Source of the DNA: Actinomycetes bacterium
GTDB taxonomy: Bacteria; Actinomycetota; Acidimicrobiia; Acidimicrobiales; Acidimicrobiaceae
Direction of reading: 5' to 3'
Length of the DNA: 8,481 nucleotides
Assembly: GCA_021819025.1 (NCBI GenBank)
Contig: JAKASN010000054.1
Span: 1 to 8,481 of the forward strand
This document shows positions 52 through 8,481 of this stretch, in pieces (positions within the stretch are counted from its first letter, which is position 1; the number at the start of each line of letters is the position of its first letter). The notes below the pieces were generated by a model. The model did no database searches. It saw only the letters and a program-made list of their open reading frames with translations, and was not told the origin of the DNA. A program made the position numbers and the translations under genes.

Positions 52-125
52 GGGCGCTTAGCTCAGCTGGTTAGAGCGCAGCCTTCACACGGCTGAGGTC
101 GGGGGTTCGAGTCCCTTAGCGCCCA
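52..125 (+). tRNA. tRNA-Val (anticodon CAC)
   Basis: Full cloverleaf is visible. The 7-bp acceptor stem GGGCGCT/AGCGCCC (52-58 with 118-124) is perfect; the D-stem is GCTC/GAGC. The anticodon stem is CAGCC/GGCTG around the loop TTCACAC, giving anticodon CAC (valine, GTG codons). The T-arm is GGGGG-TTCGAGT-CCCTT, with two G-T pairs. The discriminator base is A125 and CCA is not encoded. tRNA 3' ends are common integration targets of mobile elements, and the DNA that follows is full of mobile-element debris. Confidence 0.97.
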
Positions 126-128
126 CTC

Positions 129-152
129 GGGGTTACCGACAAAAGTAACCCC
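129..152 (+). terminator. hairpin just after tRNA-Val
   Basis: Perfect 8-bp inverted repeat GGGGTTAC/GTAACCCC (129-136 with 145-152) around an 8-nt A-rich loop, beginning 4 nt after the tRNA. There is no T-tract after it, so it may be a processing or REP-like hairpin rather than an intrinsic terminator. Confidence 0.45.
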
Positions 153-205
153 ACCATAACGACAGAACCCAGCGCGGCGATGCCATTATCGTCGCATACT
201 GTGAC

Positions 206-326: not shown

Positions 327-824
327 CTACGTCGGGGCGTAGTCGGCGTAGCTGACCCGCCTTCGTTTGGCACGCATGGGCTGGGTCAAGGAATCTTGTT
401 CCGCCTTGTCCCGAAACGCCTTGATCTTTCTCAGGTTTGCCGCCATGGTAAGGATCGCCACGAAGATGGACTGGGCGGCGATACCTCTTACGCGGCGCCT
501 CCCCGGCGCTGCGAGCGACTCATGCGCCGGATCTTTGATATAGCCGTTCAGCCCTTCGATGGTATTTCGCAGCGTCGCATAGCGCTTGGCCCATGCTCGC
601 GATCCAAAGGCGAGCTCCTGGCGATGGCGTACTCCCACATCGGGTGCGATGGTAACCGAAGCGGCCGAGCAAATCTTCGCCGGGCACGACGGAGCGTCAA
701 ACACCTTGGCTTTGGGAGAACCCGCCTGATTCGAAGATGGCCGAATCGGACATTTCACCCCGGGACGCTTTCCCAGAGCCGTCAGGATCATGAATGTCGC
801 CTCTTGCATCGGCCGCTTCACCAT
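327..824 (-). pseudogene. hybrid remnant: PadR-regulator start fused to transposase C-terminus
   Basis: The 165-codon frame is a chimera. Residues 1 to about 19 (MVKRPMQEATFMILTALGK) match the usual start of PadR-family regulators, which begin M-V/A-R-R-P-x-x-E/D-x-T-F-L-I-L-T-A-L. The normal PadR continuation (HGYGI and the winged helix) is absent. From about residue 23 the sequence is instead the C-terminal third of an actinobacterial DDE-type transposase. It shows VKCPIRP, a K-I-C-x-x-A-S-V segment (50-57), Y-A-T-L-R-N-T-I-E-G (82-91; E90 may be the last acid of the catalytic triad), KDPAHE (97-102) and GRRRVRGIAAQS (108-119). The full transposase would be several hundred residues, so most of it and its first acids are missing. 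The natural start with its promoter is kept, so the hybrid could still be expressed. Family calls come from remembered motifs. Confidence 0.75.
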
Positions 825-831
825 GATGCGC

Positions 832-861
832 AGTATATACAGTTGAACTGCCTACAATCAA
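832..861 (-). promoter_or_regulatory. promoter and palindromic operator of the PadR-derived start
   Basis: On the minus strand, -35 TTGATT (856-861), an 18-bp spacer and -10 TATACT (832-837) stand 7 nt before the ATG at 822-824, so the message would be nearly leaderless. The -10 overlaps the palindrome GTATATAC (833-840), and CAGTTgAACTG (840-850) forms a second inverted repeat. PadR proteins commonly repress their own genes at AT-rich palindromes of this kind. The regulator body is gone, so the site would now answer to some other protein or to none. Confidence 0.55.
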
Positions 862-1079
862 ATGACCGGTCACGTCTCGAAGTGCCAGCTCGCTCGACCG
901 GATTGAATGGTCCAAGCTAGACGCAGAACTCGGCTCGTGTCTGCTCGCCACTGACCTTGGAGAATCACTCCGGATTACACCTGCCTCCGTTCAGAGTGAG
1001 CGCCAATTAGATCGATTTTCGGGTGATGCGGGTGGAAGCTGCTCCAACTGAGGAAGCATCTCATCTGATAAACATGGGT
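862..1079. other. stretch without recognised gene
   Basis: Together with its flanks this gives about 320 bases between the PadR-like start and mazE. The + strand has one open frame of about 65 codons ending near 1049, with no ATG start and no recognised motif. The minus-strand frame 697-951 overlaps the hybrid pseudogene and looks like a shadow. I see no RNA gene here. Confidence 0.5.
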
Positions 1080-1101
1080 GGAAGGGCGTTCGAACATAGA
1101 C
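1080..1101 (+). repeat. 22-nt direct repeat, copy 1 (partner at 2632-2653)
   Basis: Matches 2632-2653 at 19 of 22 positions, including an unbroken 12-mer GTTCGAACATAG (1088-1099 and 2640-2651). The two copies bracket the mazEF pair and the DinB-type gene. The 8-mer GTTCGAAC inside it is a perfect palindrome. Confidence 0.6.
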
Positions 1102-1131
1102 ATTCCGTCGATGCCAGTGTGCAACGCAAAA

Positions 1132-1146: not shown

Positions 1147-1395
1147 ATGGCACAGTTGGTCACTCGCATCGACGAACAACTCGCAAGCGACGTCGACGAA
1201 CTCGTGAAAGAGGGTGTGGTGACCAGTCGCTCCGAAGCGGTGCGCATGGGGCTGGAACAACTGATCGACCGTCACCGAAGGCAACGGGTTGGAGCGCAAA
1301 TCACCGAAGCGTACCGACGGTTACCACAGACAGGTGAGGAAACGACGGGCCTCGACGAGGCGACAAGGGCGCTCGTCGAGGAGGAGCCGTGGTGA
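1147..1395 (+). CDS. mazE: MazE-type ribbon-helix-helix antitoxin
   Basis: 82-residue antitoxin of a type II TA pair. Residues about 1-45 form an RHH DNA-binding domain: a short strand (QLVTRID), then helix A (EQLASDVDELVKEG) and helix B (SRSEAVRMGLEQLID). The rest is charged and acidic near its end (TRALVEEEPW), as expected of the tail that wraps the toxin. The frame is open back to 1078, but 1147 is chosen because a perfect extended -10 ends 6 nt before that ATG and no Shine-Dalgarno is present. The stop overlaps the toxin start, implying coupled translation. Actinobacterial MazF partners usually carry RHH antitoxins rather than the AbrB-fold MazE of E. coli. Autorepression with the toxin as co-repressor is expected from the family, not shown here. 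Confidence 0.88.
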   Translation: MAQLVTRIDEQLASDVDELVKEGVVTSRSEAVRMGLEQLIDRHRRQRVGAQITEAYRRLPQTGEETTGLDEATRALVEEEPW

Positions 1396-1703
1396 CTACG
1401 CCCCGACAAGGTGAGATTTGGTGGGCTGAGGTCGAGACTGCTCGTCGGCCCGTCCTCGTCGTGACCCGATCGGAGGCAGTCGAAGTTCTATCTGGCATCG
1501 TCGTTGCGCCCGTTACTCGAACCATCCGCCAAATACCAACCGAAATCTCACTCGGTGAACCAGAAGGACTTCGAGCAGATTGCGTCGCCTCGTTCGACAA
1601 CCTCCAAAGGATCCGTCGAAGCGCGTTGACCGAAAAGGCTGGTGATCTCGGCCTGCGGCGAGACGAAATCTGCCTAGCGGTTAAAGCGATGACTGACTGC
1701 TGA
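1392..1703 (+). CDS. mazF: MazF/PemK-type endoribonuclease toxin
   Basis: 103-residue toxin of the MazF/PemK family; members cut mRNA, and sometimes tRNA or rRNA, at short sequence motifs. Visible landmarks are the opening QGEIWWAEV (family R/Q-G-E/D-I-W), the strand RRPVLVV (19-25), the block APVTRTIRQIPTEISL (39-54) and CVASFDNLQRI (64-74), which sits where MazF proteins carry the conserved Ser/Thr region of the active site. Length is normal for the family and no lesion is seen. Two in-frame GTG codons (1389 and 1392) could start it. 1392 gives the GTGA 4-nt overlap with the antitoxin stop; 1389 would add one residue. The cleavage motif cannot be told from sequence. Confidence 0.93.
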   Translation: MTTPRQGEIWWAEVETARRPVLVVTRSEAVEVLSGIVVAPVTRTIRQIPTEISLGEPEGLRADCVASFDNLQRIRRSALTEKAGDLGLRRDEICLAVKAMTDC

Positions 1704-1755
1704 GCAGTTCCGCGTCGTCGCTCCGAAATGGACCATCCGGCGCGACTGTCACATG

Positions 1756-1780
1756 CCTTGATCGACATACCGATTCAAGG
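1756..1780 (+). terminator. weak hairpin after mazF
   Basis: A 9-bp stem with one bulged T (CCTTGATCG paired with CGATTCAAGG) and a 6-nt loop, 53 nt after the mazF stop. Only a poor T-tract follows, so it is at best a weak terminator. Confidence 0.35.
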
Positions 1781-1864
1781 TGTCCTGATTCGACGGGCCA
1801 GGGGACAGGGTTTGAACGAAGGCTCGTTACCTGCACCTACGTCGCAAGAATCACGACGTCGTAC

Positions 1865-1882
1865 CTGGAGGAAGGTCTCCAG
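1865..1882. repeat. small inverted repeat before the DinB-type gene
   Basis: CTGGAG/CTCCAG, 6-bp arms with a 6-nt loop, 58 nt before the ATG at 1940. It could be an operator or a hairpin; there is no further support. Confidence 0.3.
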
Positions 1883-1939
1883 TTAGTTGTCGTAGACCAC
1901 CCGTGAAATCCTCTCGCTGCTTGCGTATTGTGAATCAGC

Positions 1940-2506
1940 ATGAAGAAGATCTTGCATAGCTACTTGCAGACCGCCCGCGCCGCCGCCGTCTGGAAGTTAG
2001 ACGGCCTTTCGGAGTACGACATCCGTCGCCCTCTTGTCCAGAGCGGGACCAACCTCCTCGGGATCGTCAAACACCTCACGTGTGTCGAGCTCGGCTACTT
2101 CGGTCCCGTCTTTGGTCGACCCATGGGTCAGCCCAATCTCTGGTTCGAGGATGACGTTGAGTTCAACGACGGCCTCTTCGTACGAGCGGACGAATCGAGG
2201 GATGACATCACTGGGAACTATCGCAGAGCGTGCGAGACTTCGGATGCAACAATCGATGCGTTGGACCTTGAGACGGCAGGCTCCGTGCCGTGGTGGGGCG
2301 ATTATCCCGTCACACTCCACCACGTACTTGTTCACGTCATCGCCGAAACCTACCGGCACGTTGGGCACTCCGATTTTGCTCGAGAGCTCATTGACGGTTC
2401 GATTGGCTACGCCGCGGACGATAGCAACCTCCCTGAGCATGACAGCGCGTGGTGGCGCGCCTACCACGATCGGGTTGAGGACGAAGCACGTCGAGCGTCG
2501 AGTTGA
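1940..2506 (+). CDS. DinB superfamily (DUF664-type) protein
   Basis: 188 residues with the four-helix-bundle layout of the DinB/DUF664 group, putative metal-dependent enzymes related to mycothiol- and bacillithiol-dependent transferases. The usual metal-binding histidines can be placed: H45 in GIVKHLTCVE at the end of helix 2, and H140/H143 in ETYRHVGHSDFARELIDG (136-153). W119 and the loop SVPWWGDYP (115-123) occupy the position of the conserved tryptophan loop. There is no signal peptide or membrane segment. No Shine-Dalgarno is present; TATTGT at 1926-1931 is a possible -10 that would give an almost leaderless mRNA. This family is not DNA polymerase IV despite its name. It is a passenger between two TA modules and no substrate can be named. 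Unlike its neighbours it has no partner gene. Confidence 0.88.
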   Translation: MKKILHSYLQTARAAAVWKLDGLSEYDIRRPLVQSGTNLLGIVKHLTCVELGYFGPVFGRPMGQPNLWFEDDVEFNDGLFVRADESRDDITGNYRRACETSDATIDALDLETAGSVPWWGDYPVTLHHVLVHVIAETYRHVGHSDFARELIDGSIGYAADDSNLPEHDSAWWRAYHDRVEDEARRASS

Positions 2507-2537
2507 CTTCGTCGATTCAGCCCAACGTTCATCGTTA

Positions 2538-2548
2538 GGGGGTTCGAG
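2538..2548 (+). repeat. GGGGGTTCGAG, identical to the tRNA-Val T-arm core
   Basis: This 11-mer, 31 nt after the DinB-type stop, is identical to 101-111 in the tRNA T-arm. Related sites are 2636-2645 (+), 2748-2756 (complement) and, with one mismatch, 1084-1093. Confidence 0.4.
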
Positions 2549-2586
2549 AAACAGGGATTCGGGCTCGTTTCCGGACCTACGATGGC

Positions 2587-2608
2587 CAGCGCCGCTAAGA
2601 CGGCGCTG
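2587..2608 (+). terminator. G+C-rich hairpin downstream of the DinB-type gene
   Basis: Perfect 8-bp stem CAGCGCCG/CGGCGCTG with a 6-nt loop, 80 nt after the stop codon. No T-tract follows. It may slow or end transcription weakly. Confidence 0.4.
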
Positions 2609-2631
2609 CGTTGCACCTTATGAACTGAGGG

Positions 2632-2653
2632 GCAAGGGGGTTCGAACATAGTC
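2632..2653 (+). repeat. 22-nt direct repeat, copy 2 (partner at 1080-1101)
   Basis: Matches copy 1 at 19 of 22 positions. Its left part AAGGGGGTTCG (2634-2644) is also the left arm of an 11-bp perfect inverted repeat whose right arm CGAACCCCCTT lies at 2748-2758. With copy 1 it encloses mazEF and the DinB-type gene. Confidence 0.6.
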
Positions 2654-2929
2654 GCGTTACCTCCACTCCGAAGTTGCCGAAAAACCGAGGCTGTCGTGAT
2701 GGTGCGTTCACGGATTCACTCGCCGGGTGTGCCGACAATGTTACTTACGAACCCCCTTCATTCGTTGCGAAGTGACTCGACGTCATCGTGGCCATGTTTG
2801 TTGCCACCCGATTGGGCCAACTAAGTTTTTCAAATCGCGTGATCTGTCAATGGCCAATTCAAAGTCCTCGCTGGTGGCCGCGGGTATCGATGGACGGCGA
2901 TTGGCACTTCGGCCATGCACGGACTCGTC
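2654..2929. other. intergenic stretch between convergent units
   Basis: From the DinB-type stop to the doc stop is about 420 bases without a supported gene. It holds the hairpin at 2587, the repeat at 2632, and the right arm of the 11-bp inverted repeat at 2748-2758. Short + strand frames (2727-2993, 2788-3021) run into doc on the opposite strand and show no family motif. I see no clear terminator for doc. Confidence 0.5.
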
Positions 2930-3295
2930 TTATTCGAGACGGAGCCGACGGGCAATTACTTCAAGGTCCAGTCGCGAGCTGGCCACGTCGTAAACAAGCT
3001 GAAATGCTTCGTCATCGGTGAACTGCGGGGCTAGGCCGTTGAGATCGCAGAATACAACCGTGCTCAGCCACGCGAGTCGCTTGTTACCATCCACGAGGGC
3101 GTGGTTCTTGCCCATCGAATGTAGGAGTGCAGCGGCCTTGAGACTGATGGTTTCGTAGGCGTCTTCACCAAAGGCACTGGACCGGGGGCGATTGACCGCT
3201 GAGTCCAACAATCCAACATCACGAACCGGACCGATTCCAAGGGTTCGAATCATCCCGATGATGTCCTCGAGTTCGAGATATTCGATTTTGTTCAT
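2930..3295 (-). CDS. doc: Doc-like (death-on-curing, Fic-fold) toxin
   Basis: 121 residues, the normal length of Doc proteins. The Fic signature is H65-A-L-V-D69-G-N-K72-R73. Doc enzymes carry Lys (NKR) where AMP-transferring Fic proteins have Gly. This change is linked to phosphorylating, rather than AMP-tagging, the target; P1 Doc inactivates elongation factor EF-Tu this way. The N-terminal part (LELEDIIGMIRTLG, then GLLDSAVNRPRSSAFGEDAYETI, 28-50) is the usual Doc helix and flap region. The start ATG overlaps the upstream antitoxin stop by 4 nt (ATGA), so translation is probably coupled. All core residues are present, so I expect an active toxin. The Phe usually found two after the His is Leu here, as in many actinobacterial members as I recall them. 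Confidence 0.93.
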   Translation of the reverse strand: MNKIEYLELEDIIGMIRTLGIGPVRDVGLLDSAVNRPRSSAFGEDAYETISLKAAALLHSMGKNHALVDGNKRLAWLSTVVFCDLNGLAPQFTDDEAFQLVYDVASSRLDLEVIARRLRLE

Positions 3296-3498
3296 GTAGA
3301 GCTAAGCCGCTCCAGGACATCGCTCCAGCGTGTCGCCATGCGACGAGTTGATTCGTCGACCCGCGCTACATGGCCGGACCGCTCGAGTCGGTCGAGCACC
3401 GCGCGGCGAATGACTTCTTGACGTGAGACGCCTTCAAATTCGGAGAGGGAGGCGAGCGCCTCCTCGAGAGTGGCGTCGATTCTAAGGGTGAATGCCAT
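3292..3498 (-). CDS. ribbon-helix-helix antitoxin paired with Doc
   Basis: 68 residues. FTLRID at 3-8 is the DNA-contacting strand, followed by helix A (ATLEEALASLSEFEG) and helix B (SRQEVIRRAVLDRLERSG). A short tail ending RRMATRWSDVLERLSST should contact the toxin. The fold is RHH (Arc/MetJ/CopG type), not the Phd fold that partners Doc in phage P1. The start ATG lies 6 nt from a -10 box, so it is read as leaderless; no Shine-Dalgarno is visible. The palindrome covering that promoter is the likely autoregulatory operator. The gene is first in a two-gene operon with a 4-nt overlap to doc. Confidence 0.9.
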   Translation of the reverse strand: MAFTLRIDATLEEALASLSEFEGVSRQEVIRRAVLDRLERSGHVARVDESTRRMATRWSDVLERLSST

Positions 3499-3504
3499 TC
3501 AATA

Positions 3505-3532
3505 ATGATACCACTGCGGTATCAACTAGCAA
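3505..3532 (-). promoter_or_regulatory. promoter and operator of the RHH-doc operon
   Basis: Minus strand: -35-like TTGCTA (3527-3532), 16-bp spacer and -10 TATCAT (3505-3510). Transcription start then falls on the ATG at 3498, a leaderless message. The palindrome TGATACC-actgc-GGTATCA (3506-3524, 7-bp perfect arms, 5-nt centre) overlaps the -10. That is the expected size and place of an RHH operator, so binding would block the polymerase. Confidence 0.75.
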
Positions 3533-3870
3533 CTCTCGGTACTTGGTCTTCGAAAGCCCTAGTTGTAGGCCCGCGACCAGGCACCAAAAATGTGCCGTCG
3601 AGGACACCGATGCCGTCGGTCCGTTCGCCGCACCATGATTGAAGGCCGCCTGGCGAAACGCATGAAGATTCGTGTGGCCGGTTCTTATTGTGTCCCTTAA
3701 GGTCCACTCGTTGTCTATATCGCAACATTCTGCCTGGCAGATCCGCTACCTCTATTTCTGCTCACGGTTATAGCTGGAATTGCTAGGCCCTAGGAACGGG
3801 CATCGCGACTACTGGTTACGATCGCATACTTCGTGATGGCGACGCTTTGTTGGGCAAATCCTAACAACCC
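3533..3870. other. stretch between divergent TA operons, no supported gene
   Basis: About 390 bases lie between the RHH start (3498) and the higB start. It holds a 5-bp hairpin GGCAC/GTGCC (3580-3596) and a degenerate tRNA-Val 3' end at 3692-3710. The minus-strand frame 3522-3728 (68 codons) has no recognisable motif. The left edge serves the RHH-doc promoter and the right edge the higB promoter. Confidence 0.5.
3692..3710 (+). repeat. degenerate copy of the tRNA-Val 3' end (possible old att site)
   Basis: 19 bases match tRNA-Val positions 111-129 at 16 of 19: GTCCCTTA, then three mismatches within the next four bases, then CCACTCG. The orientation is the same as in the tRNA. Integrative elements duplicate the 3' end of their target tRNA, so this could be the far attachment site of an old insertion. 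The match is short and could be chance. Confidence 0.35.
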
Positions 3871-3900
3871 TTGAGTTGTACACCGTGTATGTTGTATACT
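3871..3900 (+). promoter_or_regulatory. promoter and operator region of the higBA-like operon
   Basis: -35 TTGAGT (3871-3876), 18-bp spacer, -10 TATACT (3895-3900), predicted transcription start near 3907. The inverted repeat TACACcGTGTA lies in the spacer and may be the XRE operator. If the start at 3907 is right, the toxin would have to begin downstream of it, for example at GTG 3916, not at ATG 3889. Confidence 0.5.
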
Positions 3901-4260
3901 ATCCTCAGATGGGAAGTGAATCTTGAACTCGTGGAGTCCTGGCTCGATGACCTCGATCAGAACTCTTACGAACAAGTTGTCGCTGCTCTGGAGTTGCTCT
4001 GTGACCGAGGCCCACAGCTTGGACGTCCGTTGGTCGATGCCGTGAAGGCATCACGTCACAAGAACATGAAGGAGTTGCGTCCTGGCTCTAAAGGGCGCTT
4101 CGAGTTGAGGATCCTCTTCGCGTTCGATTTCGAACGAAACGCAGTTCTGCTAGTGGCGGGAGACAAATCGAGAAGTTGGAAGAAGTGGTATGAGGTGAAC
4201 ATTCCGGTTGCTGATAGCCGCTTCGATGACCACATTAGGAAACAGAAAGGAGGACTTTGA
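3889..4260 (+). CDS. higB: RelE/HigB-type toxin (Gp49-like)
   Basis: 123 residues from ATG 3889. The family pattern is complete: W8-E-V opening strand, helix ESWLDDLDQNSYEQVVAALELL, then the block LGRPLVDAVKASRHKNMKELRPGSKGRFELRI. This is followed by LFAFDFERNAVLLVAGDK (the central sheet) and the C-terminal WYEVNIPVADSRFDDHI. RelE/HigB toxins bind the ribosome and cut mRNA being translated; the R/K/H-rich RHKNMKELR segment belongs to the expected active surface. The start is uncertain: ATG 3889 lies upstream of the best -10 box, whereas GTG 3916 lies just after its predicted transcript start but would drop the conserved W. The toxin precedes the antitoxin, the order typical of higBA. Its stop overlaps the next ATG by one base. 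Confidence 0.9.
   Translation: MLYTILRWEVNLELVESWLDDLDQNSYEQVVAALELLCDRGPQLGRPLVDAVKASRHKNMKELRPGSKGRFELRILFAFDFERNAVLLVAGDKSRSWKKWYEVNIPVADSRFDDHIRKQKGGL
4246..4253 (+). promoter_or_regulatory. strong Shine-Dalgarno for the XRE antitoxin
   Basis: AAAGGAGG, 6 nt before ATG 4260 and inside the 3' end of higB. It is the only strong ribosome binding site seen ahead of a gene in the window. It decides the antitoxin start at 4260 over the in-frame TTG at 4257 and should favour antitoxin over toxin synthesis from one mRNA. Confidence 0.85.
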
Positions 4261-4565
4261 TGACAAAGAATCTGGAGCACTTGCTTGAAAGGCGTCCCGT
4301 CAACCGCGAGGTTGTGGAGACTCACAAAAAACGAATGCTAGAGGAAGTCCGGGCTTATCGCCTTCGCGAGCTACGCGAGGCTTCTAACATCACCCAGGTG
4401 GAACTTGCTAGCCGCCTGAAGGTCAGTCAGAACCGCGTCTCACGGATCGAGCATGGCGACATCGAACGCGCGCAGCTCGACACGCTACGCAAGTATATCG
4501 AGGCGGTCGGTGGTGAATTGAGAGTCGAGGTGGAAATTGGCGACGAACGTTTTCTGATCGCGTAA
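4260..4565 (+). CDS. higA: XRE-family helix-turn-helix antitoxin (HigA-like)
   Basis: 101 residues. Residues 1-34 are a basic helical arm that would meet the toxin. Residues about 35-75 are a Cro/C1-type helix-turn-helix, with TQVELASRLKVSQNRVSRIEHGDI containing the Q-x-x-[LV]-A and S-x-x-x-[VI]-S-x-[IW]-E-x-G landmarks. The tail EAVGGELRVEVEIGDERFLIA ends in a short beta segment common in this group. It is co-transcribed with higB (1-nt overlap) and preceded by a strong Shine-Dalgarno. As HigA it would neutralise the toxin and repress the operon promoter at 3871-3900. The 270 bases after it, up to 4834, hold no feature I can support. Confidence 0.93.
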   Translation: MTKNLEHLLERRPVNREVVETHKKRMLEEVRAYRLRELREASNITQVELASRLKVSQNRVSRIEHGDIERAQLDTLRKYIEAVGGELRVEVEIGDERFLIA

Positions 4566-4834
4566 CTTTCTGCAGAAGTAGTCGGCCTCGCTGGATTAAA
4601 CCTGGCTTCATTGTGCGATAAATTTCTCAGCCGATGTTTCGTTGAAGTAGGTACTCACAATTACTGCCAACGGTATGCCCGATAGCGCATGAAATCATTT
4701 ATGACCGGACGAAGTCGTACGGCGAAGTATGGATCCCACTTTAAATACAGGTCGGTTCTCACTGATCAGTAACGAAATCCGCCGGGACTTTCTGAACGGA
4801 TTCGACTCATTCTGGGGGATCTGCGACTTATGTG

Positions 4835-5310
4835 CTAACCAGTTCGTCCACGACTATCCCTCATGTTCACACCTTCTCCTCTCAGGGTTCGCCAGATTGT
4901 GCTCGCGTCCAGACCAAGTAAATTGCCAATCATCGTTGAAGAGCTTCCGGCCGGTAGGCCTCAAATACGAGTTATACCTGCTCAGGGGTGAGCGGACGGT
5001 TTCGCCTTGGAACCCCGCGTCGCCTTAGTACGTTTGATACAGTCGTGTGATGGATACGAAATTGGGCAGCGAGTTCTTCGATGGTATTTCCTGTTCGGTA
5101 GGCGACAATAAGATCATCGATTTGTCGCGGATCTAGGCGAATCTGGCTCTGTTTGGGTACATAGTTCCTGAGAGGGATTTTATCGTTTGAAGATCCTTGG
5201 GGACTCTCTCCTCTTGTTTTCCACTCCATAACTATCCTCTGAGCAGGGTGTAAAGGGTTGGAAAGTCCTCGCATCGCCTCCAACAAAGTATCCGTATGCG
5301 AACCCTGCAC
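4835..5310 (-). pseudogene. broken double helix-turn-helix protein of the serine-recombinase neighbourhood type
   Basis: The first frame (GTG 5310 or ATG 5229 down to 4972) carries a resolvase-like HTH: RLDPRQIDDLIVAYRTG, then TIEELAAQFRIHHTTVSNVL. It enters a second repeat (RPLTPEQV) and meets TAA at 4972-4974. Past the TAA the same frame reads LVFEAYR (4951-4971). After a one-base shift near 4949-4951 another frame continues with AGSSSTMIGNLLGLDASTIW, RTLRGEGVNMRDSRGRTG and TAG at 4835-4837. That is the expected second HTH (x-LY/EAYxAGxSxxxIGxxLGxDxSTIWRxLRxxGV). One nonsense codon and one single-base loss therefore separate it from an intact gene of about 130-155 codons. Such small double-HTH genes often stand beside large serine recombinases in actinobacteria, and a recombinase remnant lies at 6721-7275 on the same strand. 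Confidence 0.8.
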
Positions 5311-5320
5311 CTTAGCGGTG
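5278..5320 (-). repeat. 43-nt diverged direct repeat, copy A (partner 6376-6418)
   Basis: 32 of 43 positions match copy B with no gaps. On the minus strand both encode similar peptides, MQGSHTDTLLE here and MQGLHSDTLVD in copy B. The differences are largely conservative, pointing to a shared coding ancestor rather than a structural repeat. This copy spans the 5' end of the HTH pseudogene. Between it and vapC (5321-5541) I see only a 34-codon minus-strand frame (5312-5416) with a faint likeness to transposase starts. Confidence 0.55.
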
Positions 5321-5541
5321 CTCCGGGTACCAGCCTAAGGCATACAGCCCGACGTGGGCCGTGACGTGGTCGTCGCTGGATTCCACACTGACGGGGTTGG
5401 TTGAATTACTGTGCATCTCTGAGATGCCCTTCTTGTTTGGTAGCTGGCTTGTCTTGCAATAGCAGTTTCCCCTACAGGAAGTGCACCTTCGCGCATTTCG
5501 GACTGACGCTCAGGCGGACAGGCGAATTATCCGGGCTAGGT

Positions 5542-5937
5542 TCAGACGGTAACTACTTTAATCAGTTCTTCGAGACCAGTGAAGTCGTCTGGGTTGCGTG
5601 TATAGAGCGTCAGGTCGTTGGCGTGCGCGATTGCCGCGATCAGTAGATCGGCCATGCGTGATGGGTGCGTTCGGCCGGTGCTGGCAACAGCCGCAACTAC
5701 TTGACCAAAACTACGTGCGGCTGCTGCACCGAAGGGGATAGGTTCGAAGGTCGCCTCCGCTTGCTGAAGGCGACCCTGGCGCCTTGATTGCTCGGTGACC
5801 GTCGATGCCAGAATTGGCCCTGCGGCTAGTTCTGCAAGTGTGATCGCACTAACTGAAATCGCCTTGGGTAGGGCTCGTTGGACCAAAGGGTCATCCCAGT
5901 CGATGACCACTGATGTGTCGAGCAGACCCGTGATCAT
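5542..5937 (-). CDS. vapC: VapC-type PIN-domain ribonuclease toxin
   Basis: 131 residues with a complete PIN active site: D7 in the opening GLLDTSVVIDW, E36 in TLAELAAG, D97 in SRMADLLIAAIAH, and D117/D118 in the closing LYTRNPDDF. These acids bind Mg or Mn ions for RNA cleavage; VapC toxins often cut initiator tRNA, other tRNAs or 23S rRNA, and the target here is unknown. Length is standard. The ATG at 5935-5937 abuts the antitoxin stop (TAGATG), so translation is coupled. No lesion is seen. Downstream (5312-5541) there is no clear terminator. Confidence 0.95.
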   Translation of the reverse strand: MITGLLDTSVVIDWDDPLVQRALPKAISVSAITLAELAAGPILASTVTEQSRRQGRLQQAEATFEPIPFGAAAARSFGQVVAAVASTGRTHPSRMADLLIAAIAHANDLTLYTRNPDDFTGLEELIKVVTV

Positions 5938-6186
5938 CTAGAACTCTTGGTCAACGAAGTTGTCGAGGTCGGCTCGAAAACCCTTTGCGTCAATGCGCGG
6001 CCTGGTCTCGACGAAATCAGCGATGGCGGATTTCGGAACCACTGTTCGCCGTGGTGCGAAAAGAGGGCGCAATTCGGCCACCGGAACTCCATTACGGGTC
6101 ACCACGAAACTTTCCCCAGCGACGACCTCGTCGATTACTTTGGCGTTCTCGTTGCGCAGTTCACGTTGGGCGATAGTTTTGGTCAT
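5938..6186 (-). CDS. vapB: Phd/YefM-type antitoxin VapB
   Basis: 82 residues from ATG 6184-6186. The Phd/YefM pattern is clear: MTKTIAQRELRNENAKVIDE (N-terminal dimer and DNA-binding part), then GESFVVTRNGVPVAELRPL (the conserved F-x-V-T-x-N-G-x-P-V-A-x-L). A flexible tail, TRPRIDAKGFRADLDNFVDQ, should occupy the VapC active site. The frame is open to 6243, but the start at 6186 is chosen because the family begins M-x-x-I/T-x-x-R-E-L-R-N and because a TGnTACGCT box lies 6 nt before this ATG. It is leaderless with no Shine-Dalgarno. It is directly followed by vapC with no gap. Confidence 0.93.
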   Translation of the reverse strand: MTKTIAQRELRNENAKVIDEVVAGESFVVTRNGVPVAELRPLFAPRRTVVPKSAIADFVETRPRIDAKGFRADLDNFVDQEF

Positions 6187-6223: not shown

Positions 6224-6375
6224 AAGATGGTCCCTCGCTTCAATTCAACTTCACGGATTCTGACCGTCGTACTGAAAGTGTTTTGAAGAGAGTGTATTTA
6301 GCGGATCCTTTGTCACACCAGCGGACGATCAGGAGCTTCCACGGCGAGGCCCTGGTTCTTATGGTGTCGGTCAAG

Positions 6376-6418
6376 GTCCACCAAGGTATCCGAATGAAGA
6401 CCCTGCATCACAACGGTG
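6376..6418 (-). repeat. 43-nt diverged direct repeat, copy B (partner 5278-5320)
   Basis: It matches copy A at 32 of 43 positions and has the same orientation. It lies inside a 53-codon minus-strand frame (6313-6474) that is otherwise unrecognised. Copies A and B bracket the vapBC module. About 190 bases from here to vapB hold no other supported feature. Confidence 0.5.
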
Positions 6419-6704
6419 TCAGAGTTCCACCTCGGCCCCGGCAGGACCACTGAGTTCTGTTGGACTTTCGACATTCCAGATGCTCGACTTCTTGTAGCTC
6501 GTCATGATGAGGATTCTTATGGCGCATTTTGTCAGGATGTGGCACGGGTCTCAGATCGAGACCATCCATGTGGTCAAAGTTTGACGGGTTGCATGCGTAG
6601 AGCAGAAGGCCATTCGATAGTGCGATGGCAGCAATCATCGCGTCATAAGCCCGCGCTCGAGTGTTTCGCCCCGCACGGTGCAGCGACGCCGCGACCCGGC
6701 CCAT
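6408..6704 (-). pseudogene. C-terminal remnant of a second VapC (PIN) toxin
   Basis: Residues 1-57 of this frame match the last third of a PIN toxin: GRVAASLHRAGRNTRARAYD, then AMIAAIALSNGLLLYACNPSNF and GLDLRPVPHP. The counterpart of D97 of the intact VapC survives (D21). The last acid is gone, since NPSNF replaces NPDDF. The front half with the LLDTS motif and the conserved Glu is missing; the frame meets TAG at 6756-6758. After PHP the frame runs on for about 40 unrelated codons, so the natural stop has been lost too. No antitoxin is attached. It ends against a serine recombinase remnant, which suggests a deletion joined them. It cannot be a working nuclease. Confidence 0.75.
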
Positions 6705-6720: not shown

Positions 6721-7275
6721 TCACAGTGTCGTAGCTTGAAGAGTACTAGAGATCCCTATTTTGGTAACTGTTGTAGCCCCATCGGTTTCCTCGTCGGCGG
6801 CACAATAACGGTCGTGGTGGACGTGGTCTGGCACGAGGCCAGAGTGCAGGTGGTCTACGGGTTTGCTGTAAATGACTGTGACGGTCCGCTCAGTGGTCTC
6901 TTCGTCGGCGCCGTTATAGGTTTTGGCGAAGAAGGCTGGTTCGAATAGCCGTCGGTTGCCGTGGCTGGTTTCGCGGTATTGCCGAGCTGGACTGGGTCGC
7001 GTCGACGGCGTTGGTCGGGCTCATTGGTGGGGGCTCGTAGCTCTTCTTGACATCGCTAAGCTGCTCTCGGATCCTCAGGAGCCGACCCGCAATGAGGTCT
7101 TGCTAGGCATTGAGTAGATCGAGCGGCATTGCCCGGCCTAGTTGTCGTCGAGGAGTTCATCGCCCTTGCCCGTCAGGTCGATACGTCGTGGCGCCGTCTC
7201 TTGCCGTTCCGCGGTTGCTGGCATCAGCAAAACATCGGAGTCCCTCAGGAGGAGTTGCTAGAGTTTGGCTTGCAC
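6721..7275 (-). pseudogene. C-terminal remnant of a large serine recombinase
   Basis: There is no long intact frame, but the minus strand in changing frames gives the coiled-coil and C-terminal part of an actinobacterial serine recombinase, in order. At 7275-7150: VQAKL-stop-QLLLRDSDVLL, then LTGKGDELLDDN-stop. From 7129 in another frame: MPLDLLNA-stop-QDLIAGRLLR and IREQLSDVKKSYE (family: A-G-A-I-P-L-D-L-L-K-x-E-Q-D-R-I, with GAG apparently changed to TAG at 7103-7105). From about 7000 in a third frame: ARQYRETSHGNRRLFEPAFF, AKTYNGADEETTERTVTVIY and SKPVDHLHSGLVPDHVHH, ending at TGA 6721-6723 (family: R-R-L-F-N-Q-A-F-F). The catalytic serine domain and zinc ribbon are absent. This was the likely mobility enzyme of the region and is dead. 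Confidence 0.8.
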
Positions 7276-7328
7276 CGGGCGGGGGAGACGAGAGGGAGTG
7301 ACAGGTTTTTTTCGGCACTGGGGTAAAT

Positions 7329-7358
7329 ACTCGGCAGAGGCCGAGTTCTTCCCTTTTT
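7329..7358 (+). terminator. intrinsic terminator-like hairpin
   Basis: Perfect 7-bp stem ACTCGGC/GCCGAGT (7329-7335 with 7340-7346), 4-nt loop AGAG, and T-tract at 7354-7358. Its orientation is +, yet no + strand gene ends before it. It may shield the oxidoreductase from transcription through the remnants. Confidence 0.6.
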
Positions 7359-7663: not shown

Positions 7664-8481
7664 ATGCGAGCAGTTGGAGTCTTCGAATTTGGCGGCTCAG
7701 AAGTTCTCCGGGTGATTAATCTTCCTGACCCGGAGCCTGGCGCGGGAGAAGTCGTCGTTCGCGTACACGCGGCAACTGTCAACCCCACGGACATTATGAC
7801 GCGTAATGGAGCGCGAGCCGAGCTATTGCGCGCGGATGGGGATGGTCCCTACCTAATGGGGATGGAAGCTGCCGGGGAAGTGGCGGCGATTGGCGAAAGC
7901 GCCGATACCGACTTGCGTCGGGGCGACCGCGTCATGGCTATTGTCGTTCCGAAAGGTGCATATGGTGCTTACGCAGAACTAGTAGCCGTACCTGCCGAGT
8001 CGGTGGTGAGAAGTCCGGCGGGGGTTACAGATGCCGAGGCGGCCACTTTGCCCATGAATGGCTTGACAGCCCGCATGGCCCTTGACACTCTCCACCTAAA
8101 GAGAGGCAGCGTTGTCGCCATAACCGGAGCAGCTGGGACTCTAGGCGGATATCTCATCCAACTGGCCAGAGCAGACGGCCTGACCGTGGTGGCCGATGCA
8201 TCCCAAGCCGATGAGGGACTCGTGAAAGGACTGGGGGCCGACTTCGTGGTGCGGCGAGGGGACGATGTGGCGCGCCGGATTCGCCAGGTAATTGTCTCGG
8301 GAGTGGACGGACTGGCCGACGCCGCATTATTGGGAGACAAGGTCATCCCAGCAGTTCGCGACGGTGGCAAAGTGGTGACCCTGCGCGGCTATCGTGGTCC
8401 CGAGGTGCCCGTGCGCGAGATAACCTTTCACCCGATTTTGGTGCGCAACTACTTCAAAGAGCATGAGAAGCTCGACCGCTT
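7664..8481 (+). CDS. zinc-independent MDR oxidoreductase (quinone reductase-like), 3' end outside the window
   Basis: 272 residues are present and the gene continues past the edge; members are usually about 310-340. The N-terminal GroES-like domain shows MRAVGVFEFGGSEVLRV, the linker PDPEPGAGEVVVRVHAATVNPTD (21-43) and MGMEAAGEVAAIG (65-77). The nucleotide domain has AITGAAGTLGGYLIQLA (152-168; family A-x-x-G-x-x-G) and the strand VVADAS (175-180). The cysteines and histidines that bind zinc in alcohol dehydrogenases are absent, which places it with the NADPH:quinone oxidoreductases and enoyl reductases. These are cytosolic enzymes that reduce an activated C=C or quinone with NADPH. ATG 7664 is chosen because it starts the family-typical M-R/K-A-V. 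No Shine-Dalgarno is seen. It appears intact, unlike the remnants before it, and probably marks the return to ordinary chromosome. Confidence 0.93.
   Translation, partial: MRAVGVFEFGGSEVLRVINLPDPEPGAGEVVVRVHAATVNPTDIMTRNGARAELLRADGDGPYLMGMEAAGEVAAIGESADTDLRRGDRVMAIVVPKGAYGAYAELVAVPAESVVRSPAGVTDAEAATLPMNGLTARMALDTLHLKRGSVVAITGAAGTLGGYLIQLARADGLTVVADASQADEGLVKGLGADFVVRRGDDVARRIRQVIVSGVDGLADAALLGDKVIPAVRDGGKVVTLRGYRGPEVPVREITFHPILVRNYFKEHEKLDR

Follow-up and report, generated by a model that had tools for sequence, protein, structure and literature searches.

In integrons, gene cassettes stand in tandem, hold one module each and are ended by a recombination site. A toxin–antitoxin (TA) system has been proposed to stabilise the superintegron of Vibrio (PMC12548467). 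Tycheposons are elements of 4–200 kb that carry a tyrosine recombinase, and one additive island has been described that is marked by recurring tRNA 3' end repeats (PMC10872708). Integration of serine recombinases into tRNA genes has been called rare in a report that names actinomycete integrative and conjugative elements (AICEs) of Mycobacterium at tRNA-Leu and phage phiRSM1 at tRNA-Ser; the same report considers it unclear whether an inability to form tandem arrays limits AICEs (PMC3218068). In this study, we analysed a stretch of 8,481 nucleotides from an actinomycete of the family Acidimicrobiaceae (assembly GCA_021819025.1, contig JAKASN010000054.1), referred to as the window, in which TA modules with MazF, Doc, RelE/HigB and PIN toxins lie in an array behind a tRNA-Val(CAC) gene. 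TA-rich mobile DNA has reportedly been described in an acidophile, Acidithiobacillus ferrooxidans (PMC4226512). This species belongs to a different phylum.

The array was compared with each of these systems. As in the Vibrio superintegron and other chromosomal integrons, one-module cassettes, TA modules among them, stand in tandem and each is closed by a recombination site; however, the array is anchored on tRNA genes and not on attI, its arms resemble the att sites of large serine recombinases (LSRs), and no integron integrase scored over the cut-off in its own genome. As in tycheposons and the tRNA-repeat additive islands, cargo accumulates behind a tRNA gene, whereas the clearest units here measure 0.8–1.6 kb and the associated recombinases are LSRs. 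In contrast to integrative and conjugative elements whose serine recombinases target tRNA genes, several kinds of tRNA gene serve as targets and compact, integrase-less TA units are stacked in tandem. With a probability of about 0.68, the four TA modules are separate non-autonomous cassettes, which LSRs would have inserted in trans and in succession at the CCAC ends of tRNA genes, a 28-nt att arm being left by every insertion. This reading is carried by the arms, the exact edges of the segments, the recurrence of the Doc and RelE segments between unrelated flanks at further tRNA genes, LSR elements at tRNA ends with the same kinds of arm, a 5-bp spacing difference between arms and tRNA ends, and purifying selection on the modules. 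From these we infer that LSRs made the junctions; the cassettes would have moved by this enzyme and been kept by addiction. A search by titles and abstract openings, with most subscription papers and bioRxiv preprints outside its reach, found no prior description of TA cassettes in tRNA-anchored LSR arrays.

The window comprises a complete contig (C479 of 543) from a 2.74-Mb metagenome-assembled genome (MAG; G000) with 73.9% completeness. It was compared at the DNA level with 98 genomes, and LSR and MDR proteins were searched in 60, its own included in both sets; genomes, contigs and loci are numbered here with G, C and L. A DNA search with the window from position 1000 on matched 50 of the 98 genomes, again including its own, and the matches ended at the same window positions across different genomes. 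The results showed that the RelE/XRE block begins right after the CCAC of tRNA-Ala(TGC) in L020, L023 (where the toxin frame is broken) and L133 (where it is cut by the contig end), with the head only in L134. The Doc block begins right after the CCAC of tRNA-Val(CAC) in L026, of tRNA-Ala(CGC) in L027 and of tRNA-Ala(GGC) in L028, whose copy breaks off short of the right arm. In the window, both blocks begin after 28-nt arms instead.

The lengths of these segments were nearly constant. The window's RelE segment (1,576 bp) and that at tRNA-Ala(TGC) in L020 (1,575 bp) share 87.6% identity over 1,573 columns; identity in the 150-bp flanks is 53.3% and 50.0%, compared with 51.2% and 51.3% for shuffled sequence. 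The Doc segment measures 1,041 bp in the window, 1,019 bp in L026 and 1,015 bp in L027, the latter two 80.4% and 79.7% identical to the window, with flanks at 53.3–59.3% against 50.2–51.1% shuffled. Between L026 and L027, the Doc segments are 93.5% identical and the left flanks, both of them tRNA genes, 64.7% alike. The cleanest array was found in L019, from a genome of another family of the order (G076): a LysE transporter gene, RelE/XRE and MazEF follow each other with junctions at 1101, 2148 and 3128, and their arms are identical or differ at 1 of 28 positions, which suggests that the system is wider than one family. In G013 (L021), the order PadR remnant, MazEF and mycothiol transferase is kept behind the same tRNA-Val(CAC), and the left flank of the mycothiol-transferase segment is conserved (82.7%), indicating that this stretch was inherited or moved jointly and was not shuffled. 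Contigs C38, C178 and C534 of the window's own genome (L036, L035 and L103) contain LSR heads at two additional tRNA-Ala ends, together with a fragment of RelE and a further E2 arm.

The modules of the window are divided by 28-nt arms of the form GGTTY...CCAC that resemble tRNA 3' ends; they end at 1836, 2666, 3707, 5283, 6381 and 6450 and score 17.3–28.6 bits. As in tycheposons, there is tRNA anchoring with partial tRNA repeats at the ends, although the arms mimic the tRNA end and do not copy it. Searched as near-exact repeats (up to 3 mismatches), arms E1 and E2 were recovered in only 4 and 11 of the 98 genomes; because the arms are degenerate, a weight matrix was needed, and it was built from 14 arms. 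We scanned the window and 60 loci, three of them from its own genome (554,983 bases). L129 overlaps L031, and the single hit they have in common scores 15.9 bits, under the cut used. At 16 bits or more, 49 arms were found against 1 in the reversed or complemented control, and at 18 bits or more, 43 against 0; this count is a measure of motif specificity and not of genome-wide frequency, because the loci had been picked for common modules or heads and had also supplied the training arms.

The spacing within the arms differed from that in the tRNA genes. From GGTTC to the end of CCAC, 23 nt are found in the tRNAs against 28 nt in the arms, so that the outer motif lies 5 bp further out in the arms, as would be expected of LSR attB and attP sites. 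Rutherford and colleagues reported a 5-bp displacement of the zinc-ribbon motif between the attP and attB sites of serine integrases, whose attP half-sites measure 25 bp (PMC3783163). The GGTTC...CCAC 3' end of tRNA-Val(CAC) is named here a putative attB half-site. Behind the arms, AAC starts at offset 16–20 in 15 of 33 non-redundant heads, compared with 3, 2, 1 and 1 of 33 at offsets 1–5, 6–10, 11–15 and 21–25. Behind three surveyed tRNA genes, the same offset holds AAC in 15 of 50 heads, compared with 1–4 of 50 in the other offset ranges counted. In their spacing, the arms have the geometry of LSR att sites; the mirrored motif is enriched, yet more than half of the heads lack it.

LSR genes were found at the junctions themselves. 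The commonest head, CAAAGTATCCGTATGAGAACCC, stands directly at 20 tRNA ends of five kinds, and it is the 3' end of an LSR gene that is oriented towards the tRNA and ends inside it; the product, of 577–582 amino acids (aa), has Resolvase, Recombinase and zinc-ribbon domains. LSR matches at E 1e-20, truncated ones included, occurred in 20 of the 60 genomes. Of 30 fetched loci with LSR matches, 22 had a tRNA gene in reach; among the long open reading frames listed, 13 of 16 enter a tRNA. At L108 (4758–6488), L115, L117 and L165–L167, the LSR gene continues into a tRNA on the opposite strand, and the last residues of the recombinase are encoded by the host tRNA. The LSR head H3 occurs exactly in 27 stretches, from MAGs titled Actinomycetes, Actinobacteria, Acidimicrobiaceae or bacterium and from the isolates Acidithrix ferrooxidans and Ferrithrix thermotolerans; cultured A. 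ferrooxidans has an LSR sequence of this family at tRNA-Val(CAC) (L138). In G022, one such LSR element, judged from its two ends, probably extends over about 23 kb, with tRNA-Met on one side and an E4 arm of the same contig on the other. A second LSR gene (475 aa; Resolvase, Recombinase and zinc-ribbon domains) is open in a 4,490-bp element at tRNA-Val(GAC) (L102), and this LSR475 element closes on the right with an E2 arm, as the Doc and PIN segments of the window do. Two LSR-encoding elements at tRNA ends terminate in such arms.

The segments might instead be relics of complete LSR integrative elements, each of which once had its own TA module and kept this addictive part while the rest decayed. 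A decayed LSR gene and an LSR tail are present in the window, and at a number of tRNA ends truncated LSR C-termini stand alone. However, independent decay would not yield such closely matching lengths (1,576 and 1,575 bp; 1,041, 1,019 and 1,015 bp) and the same edges in separate places, and a 69-bp unit recurs at one fixed length. LSR queries found no similarity at E 0.1 within five segments, Doc in the window, L026 and L027 and RelE in the window and L020; these segments hold no LSR of their own, as an autonomous LSR element would, and the LSR sequences in the window are relics. We consider decay of whole elements unlikely.

A tyrosine integrase that targets tRNA 3' ends, the kind of enzyme behind most tRNA islands and tycheposons, is a much poorer candidate for the maker of the array. 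Such ends are its classical target, and PF00589 genes were found in 42 of the 43 genomes searched; two tyrosine recombinase genes lie about 1.3–3.5 kb behind a tRNA-Ala(TGC) (G004:C301, 1251–4721), which also counts against the LSR reading. However, that tRNA has none of the heads or arms defined here and carries a different kind of occupant. Among the matches listed, no tyrosine recombinase was on the window contig or on the contigs with TA cassettes, and the others on contigs with junctions or tRNAs (G022:C8, G020:C2 and C4, the long G017:C1 and G052:C1) were tens of kb or more away. At the junctions themselves stand LSR genes, and the arms have LSR-type spacing.

It is very improbable that the array is an integron or attC cluster served by an integrase elsewhere. 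The tandem, small, TA-rich cassettes in mixed orientation do resemble a chromosomal integron, but their anchors are tRNA genes. In attC sites, the crossover lies within GTT, and GTT and AAC have a set order; here, the junctions are at CCAC, more than 20 nt from GTT, and GTT and AAC stand in the opposite order. The search for an integron integrase, made in the own genome and not in the relatives, gave eight matches below the cut-off, the best at 66.2 of 265 bits; such matches are typical of any tyrosine recombinase and were also found below the cut-off in all 14 control genomes. Chance clustering or mis-assembly of the bin is just as improbable: the MAG is fragmented, with the window as one entire contig, and repeats favour mis-joins, but the same blocks and edges recur in several independent assemblies and the LSR head is present in the cultured A. 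ferrooxidans and F. thermotolerans.

We then delimited 32 segments between successive junctions on one strand. Twelve were exactly 69 bp long and gene-less, and the other 20 were gene-sized. Of the latter, 12 hold a TA pair, among them a DUF433/DUF5615 pair in L099 (3e-24 and 7e-30) which we take to be one, and L100 holds a lone PIN gene (PF01850, 1.9e-14); these 13 of 20 are not an unbiased share, because the loci had been fetched largely by similarity to the window's modules. The other seven carry a PadR operon, a DUF1801-like gene (below cut-off), mycothiol-related and AHSA1 genes, or a recombinase. The 12 copies of the 69-bp unit are spread over 11 loci (the window, L029, L097, L109 with two, L118, L120, L122, L124, L125, L127 and L128), at tRNA-Ala(CGC), Ala(TGC), Val(CAC) and Val(TAC) and behind arms. 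Directly behind the unit at tRNA-Ala(CGC) in L029, beside a Doc module, a nucleotidyltransferase gene is followed by a HEPN-like gene (3391–4420; the latter with 19.6 bits under a cut-off of 22), which may represent a further type of TA module in this setting. A survey of three tRNA genes gave 72 rows, of which 3 with fewer than 40 nt downstream were left out; 50 different heads were found in the remaining 69 cases, and the tRNA 3' ends are therefore insertion hot spots. In G049:C109 (40751–49478), three tRNA-Ala(CGC) 3' ends on one strand, spaced 3.3–5.4 kb from each other, have almost identical heads, as if tandem elements had each carried a tRNA end.

Under the cassette reading, the LSRs of co-resident elements would recombine cassette junctions with tRNA ends, and the cassettes would travel as excised circles. 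Arrays would grow next to the tRNA, where new cassettes land and older ones are pushed away. TA cargo would be common because losing a TA cassette costs the cell, analogous to the proposal for the Vibrio superintegron. The array is likely a variant of tRNA islands, LSR elements and gene cassettes, and would be a distinct platform if mobilisation in trans were proven. The odds seem about even that the Acidimicrobiales hold such a second gene-cassette platform, a serine-recombinase counterpart of the integron, in which a tRNA gene is the landing site, the LSRs of neighbouring elements act as the common integrase, and TA cassettes under 2 kb and empty 69-bp units are captured in trans into ordered arrays kept by TA addiction. 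If so, unrelated TA modules would pile up in one place as the cargo of a common insertion site, and an integron-like cassette economy could rest on LSRs and tRNA genes, a target called rare for LSRs in the source cited above (PMC3218068). A further question also becomes testable: are the modules retained in the interest of the host, or because they stabilise the array?

Several observations weigh against the cassette reading. The tRNA of the window is followed by a terminator-like stretch common to G006 and by relics, not by a cassette head, and the first arm (at about 1085) is degenerate and 960 bp from the tRNA; the left edge of the MazEF segment is weak for these reasons. The arms ending at 1836 and 5283 are degenerate as well, 18 of the 33 heads behind arms lack the mirrored motif, and the training arms of the matrix came from these same loci, 2 of the 14 from the window. 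L026 and L027 share the next (PIN) block too, with right flanks 92.7% identical, so that Doc and PIN travel paired and were moved or inherited together there, and MazEF in L021 lies inside a 3.4-kb segment with other genes. Arms E1 and E3 are tied to no particular LSR. No LSR was found in the own MAG, 73.9% complete, at E 1e-20 for the 577-aa type or 1e-15 for the 475-aa type; the mobiliser may have been lost, not assembled or never resident. Finally, tandem growth needs recombination between attP-like DNA and an occupied tRNA end, which serine integrases do not readily perform without a directionality factor.

We calculated dN/dS pairwise against near-full-length relatives with at least 70% protein identity. 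The results showed values of 0.07–0.22 for every toxin and antitoxin against close relatives, those of MazE, MazF and the mycothiol transferase each from one relative (L021). Less certain values, or values outside this range, were 0.04 for RelE of L019 (dS 2.6) and 0.23 and 0.18 for Phd of L130 and L131 (49% identity); partial genes gave 0.22 for PIN of L026 and L027, 0.23 for XRE of L106 and 0.53 for the Doc antitoxin of L038. RelE is frame-broken in L023, with fragments at 0.33 and 0.09, and several distant pairs were saturated. Among the relics, the VapC remnant gave 0.35, the longer helix-turn-helix (HTH) piece 0.31 and the short one 0.16. The modules thus appear to be maintained and the relics less so, a supported but modest contrast because the short HTH piece gives 0.16, which agrees with the original prediction that the modules are under selection to stay.

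The original prediction, made from the sequence of the window alone, had also proposed an island that gathers TA modules. This was borne out, as these modules recur in relatives in different orders and, with exact edges, at different tRNA genes, and the window is a genuine TA-rich island and more than a cluster. It had named the same genes in the same order with normal flanks in close relatives as a refutation; no such full locus was seen in the 98 genomes, although part of the order (PadR remnant, MazEF and transferase) is kept in L021. A search for the locus between tRNA-Val and the MDR gene did not recover it in relatives: only two other MDR homologues (34–35% identity) were found at E 1e-30 in the 60 genomes, so that no clean empty site of the whole region emerged. 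The prediction was right that all mobility genes visible in the window are broken, and the decayed LSR gene, unnoticed before, adds to that list; this relic and the tRNA-end-like arms between the modules, an architecture the prediction did not contain, were added by the present analysis.

The features of the window are listed in Table 1. All four predicted modules, with four toxin folds and their own antitoxins (RHH/MazF, RHH/Doc, RelE(Gp49)/XRE and Phd/PIN), occupy open frames where predicted, and each consists of a toxin of a known family with an adjacent small antitoxin; the matches are to Pfam or NCBIfam, with two antitoxins slightly under the Pfam cut-off. The RelE frame is open from 3871, and its start codon is likely the ATG at 3889. 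Sequence searches found solved structural relatives for MazF (MazF3), Doc (Doc-family proteins) and PIN (VapC-type chains), and none at E 0.1 for RelE. The gene predicted as DinB-type exists, but its best match is to the mycothiol-S-transferases.

Table 1. Features of the 8,481-nt window, in order of position. E, Pfam E-values unless stated otherwise.
Feature	Position	Strand	Remarks
tRNA-Val(CAC), array anchor	52..126	+	Other cassettes directly at the 3' end of the same tRNA in L021 and L026
Terminator-like stretch after tRNA	127..157	+	Likewise behind tRNA-Val in G006
Relics: weak DDE transposase match and PadR remnant	327..1002	-	Transposase match 330-824, under cut-off; PadR from ~773, gene open in L021
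Degenerate E1-type arm (GGGCGTTCGAACATAG...)	1085..1106	+	Repeat; probable left edge of MazEF segment
RHH antitoxin of MazF	1147..1395	+	19.6 bits, under Pfam cut-off of 20.5; dN/dS 0.12, one relative
MazF/PemK toxin	1389..1703	+	PemK/MazF 9e-11; dN/dS 0.07, one relative
Arm, MazEF / mycothiol-transferase boundary	1809..1836	+	18.4 bits; L021 counterpart at 10002
Mycothiol-S-transferase / DinB-like gene	1940..2506	+	Separate segment 1837-2666; best match PF04978, 2.5e-40; dN/dS 0.15
Arm E1	2639..2666	+	28.6 bits
Doc toxin	2930..3295	-	Fic/Doc 1e-11; dN/dS 0.16-0.21, four full-length comparisons
RHH antitoxin of Doc	3292..3498	-	RHH_1 5e-5, above cut-off
Arm E2	3680..3707	+	27.7 bits; same type as right arm of LSR475 element in L102
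RelE/HigB (Gp49) toxin	3889..4260	+	Gp49/RelE-HigB 5e-21, scanned from 3910
XRE antitoxin	4257..4565	+	HTH_3 9e-11
Double helix-turn-helix protein relic	4844..5316	-	Broken by one stop and one frame change; homologues at E3-type segment ends in relatives
Degenerate E3-type arm	5256..5283	+	17.3 bits; CCAA in place of CCAC
Last codons of LSR gene (head H3)	5281..5334	-	Likely scar of the left end of an LSR element
PIN (VapC-type) toxin	5542..5937	-	PIN 1e-7; dN/dS 0.07-0.13
Phd/YefM antitoxin of PIN toxin	5938..6186	-	29.4 of 29.8 bits, just under Pfam cut-off; passes NCBIfam TIGR01552 phd_fam
Arm E2	6354..6381	+	22.1 bits
Gene-less 69-bp unit (LSR element head H3 + arm E4)	6382..6450	+	Recurs at exactly this length
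VapC relic, C-terminal 63 residues	6451..6710	-	79% identity to open VapC frame in L034
Decayed LSR gene	6748..7350	-	Residues ~350-556 of 577, several stops; E 5e-14 (LSR match)
MDR-family dehydrogenase gene	7664..8481	+	Cut by contig end; right flank of array

The terminator-like stretch behind tRNA-Val was also found in another genus: window positions 130–167 are 84% identical over 38 nt to 7235–7272 of L109, where the stretch stands behind tandem 69-bp units, so that it may itself be mobile. The short repeat at 5274–5341 was considered as the start of a protein and rejected; it consists of the C-terminal tail of an LSR gene and tRNA-adjacent DNA. The LSR tail within it is likely the scar of the left end of an LSR element.

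The gene predicted to be a dead HTH gene proved to be a broken protein with two helix-turn-helix motifs. A small protein of this kind stands at the E3 end of several cassettes (L031, L032, L033 and L034), and the source of one homologue calls it a Pin-like recombinase; the small protein may be a DNA-binding factor specific to the cassettes, or part of a recombinase. The predicted headless VapC was likewise confirmed, as its C-terminal residues match the open VapC of L034. There, an open VapBC module adjoins tRNA-Ala(TGC), and the DNA match of the relic to this locus ends at window position 6701.

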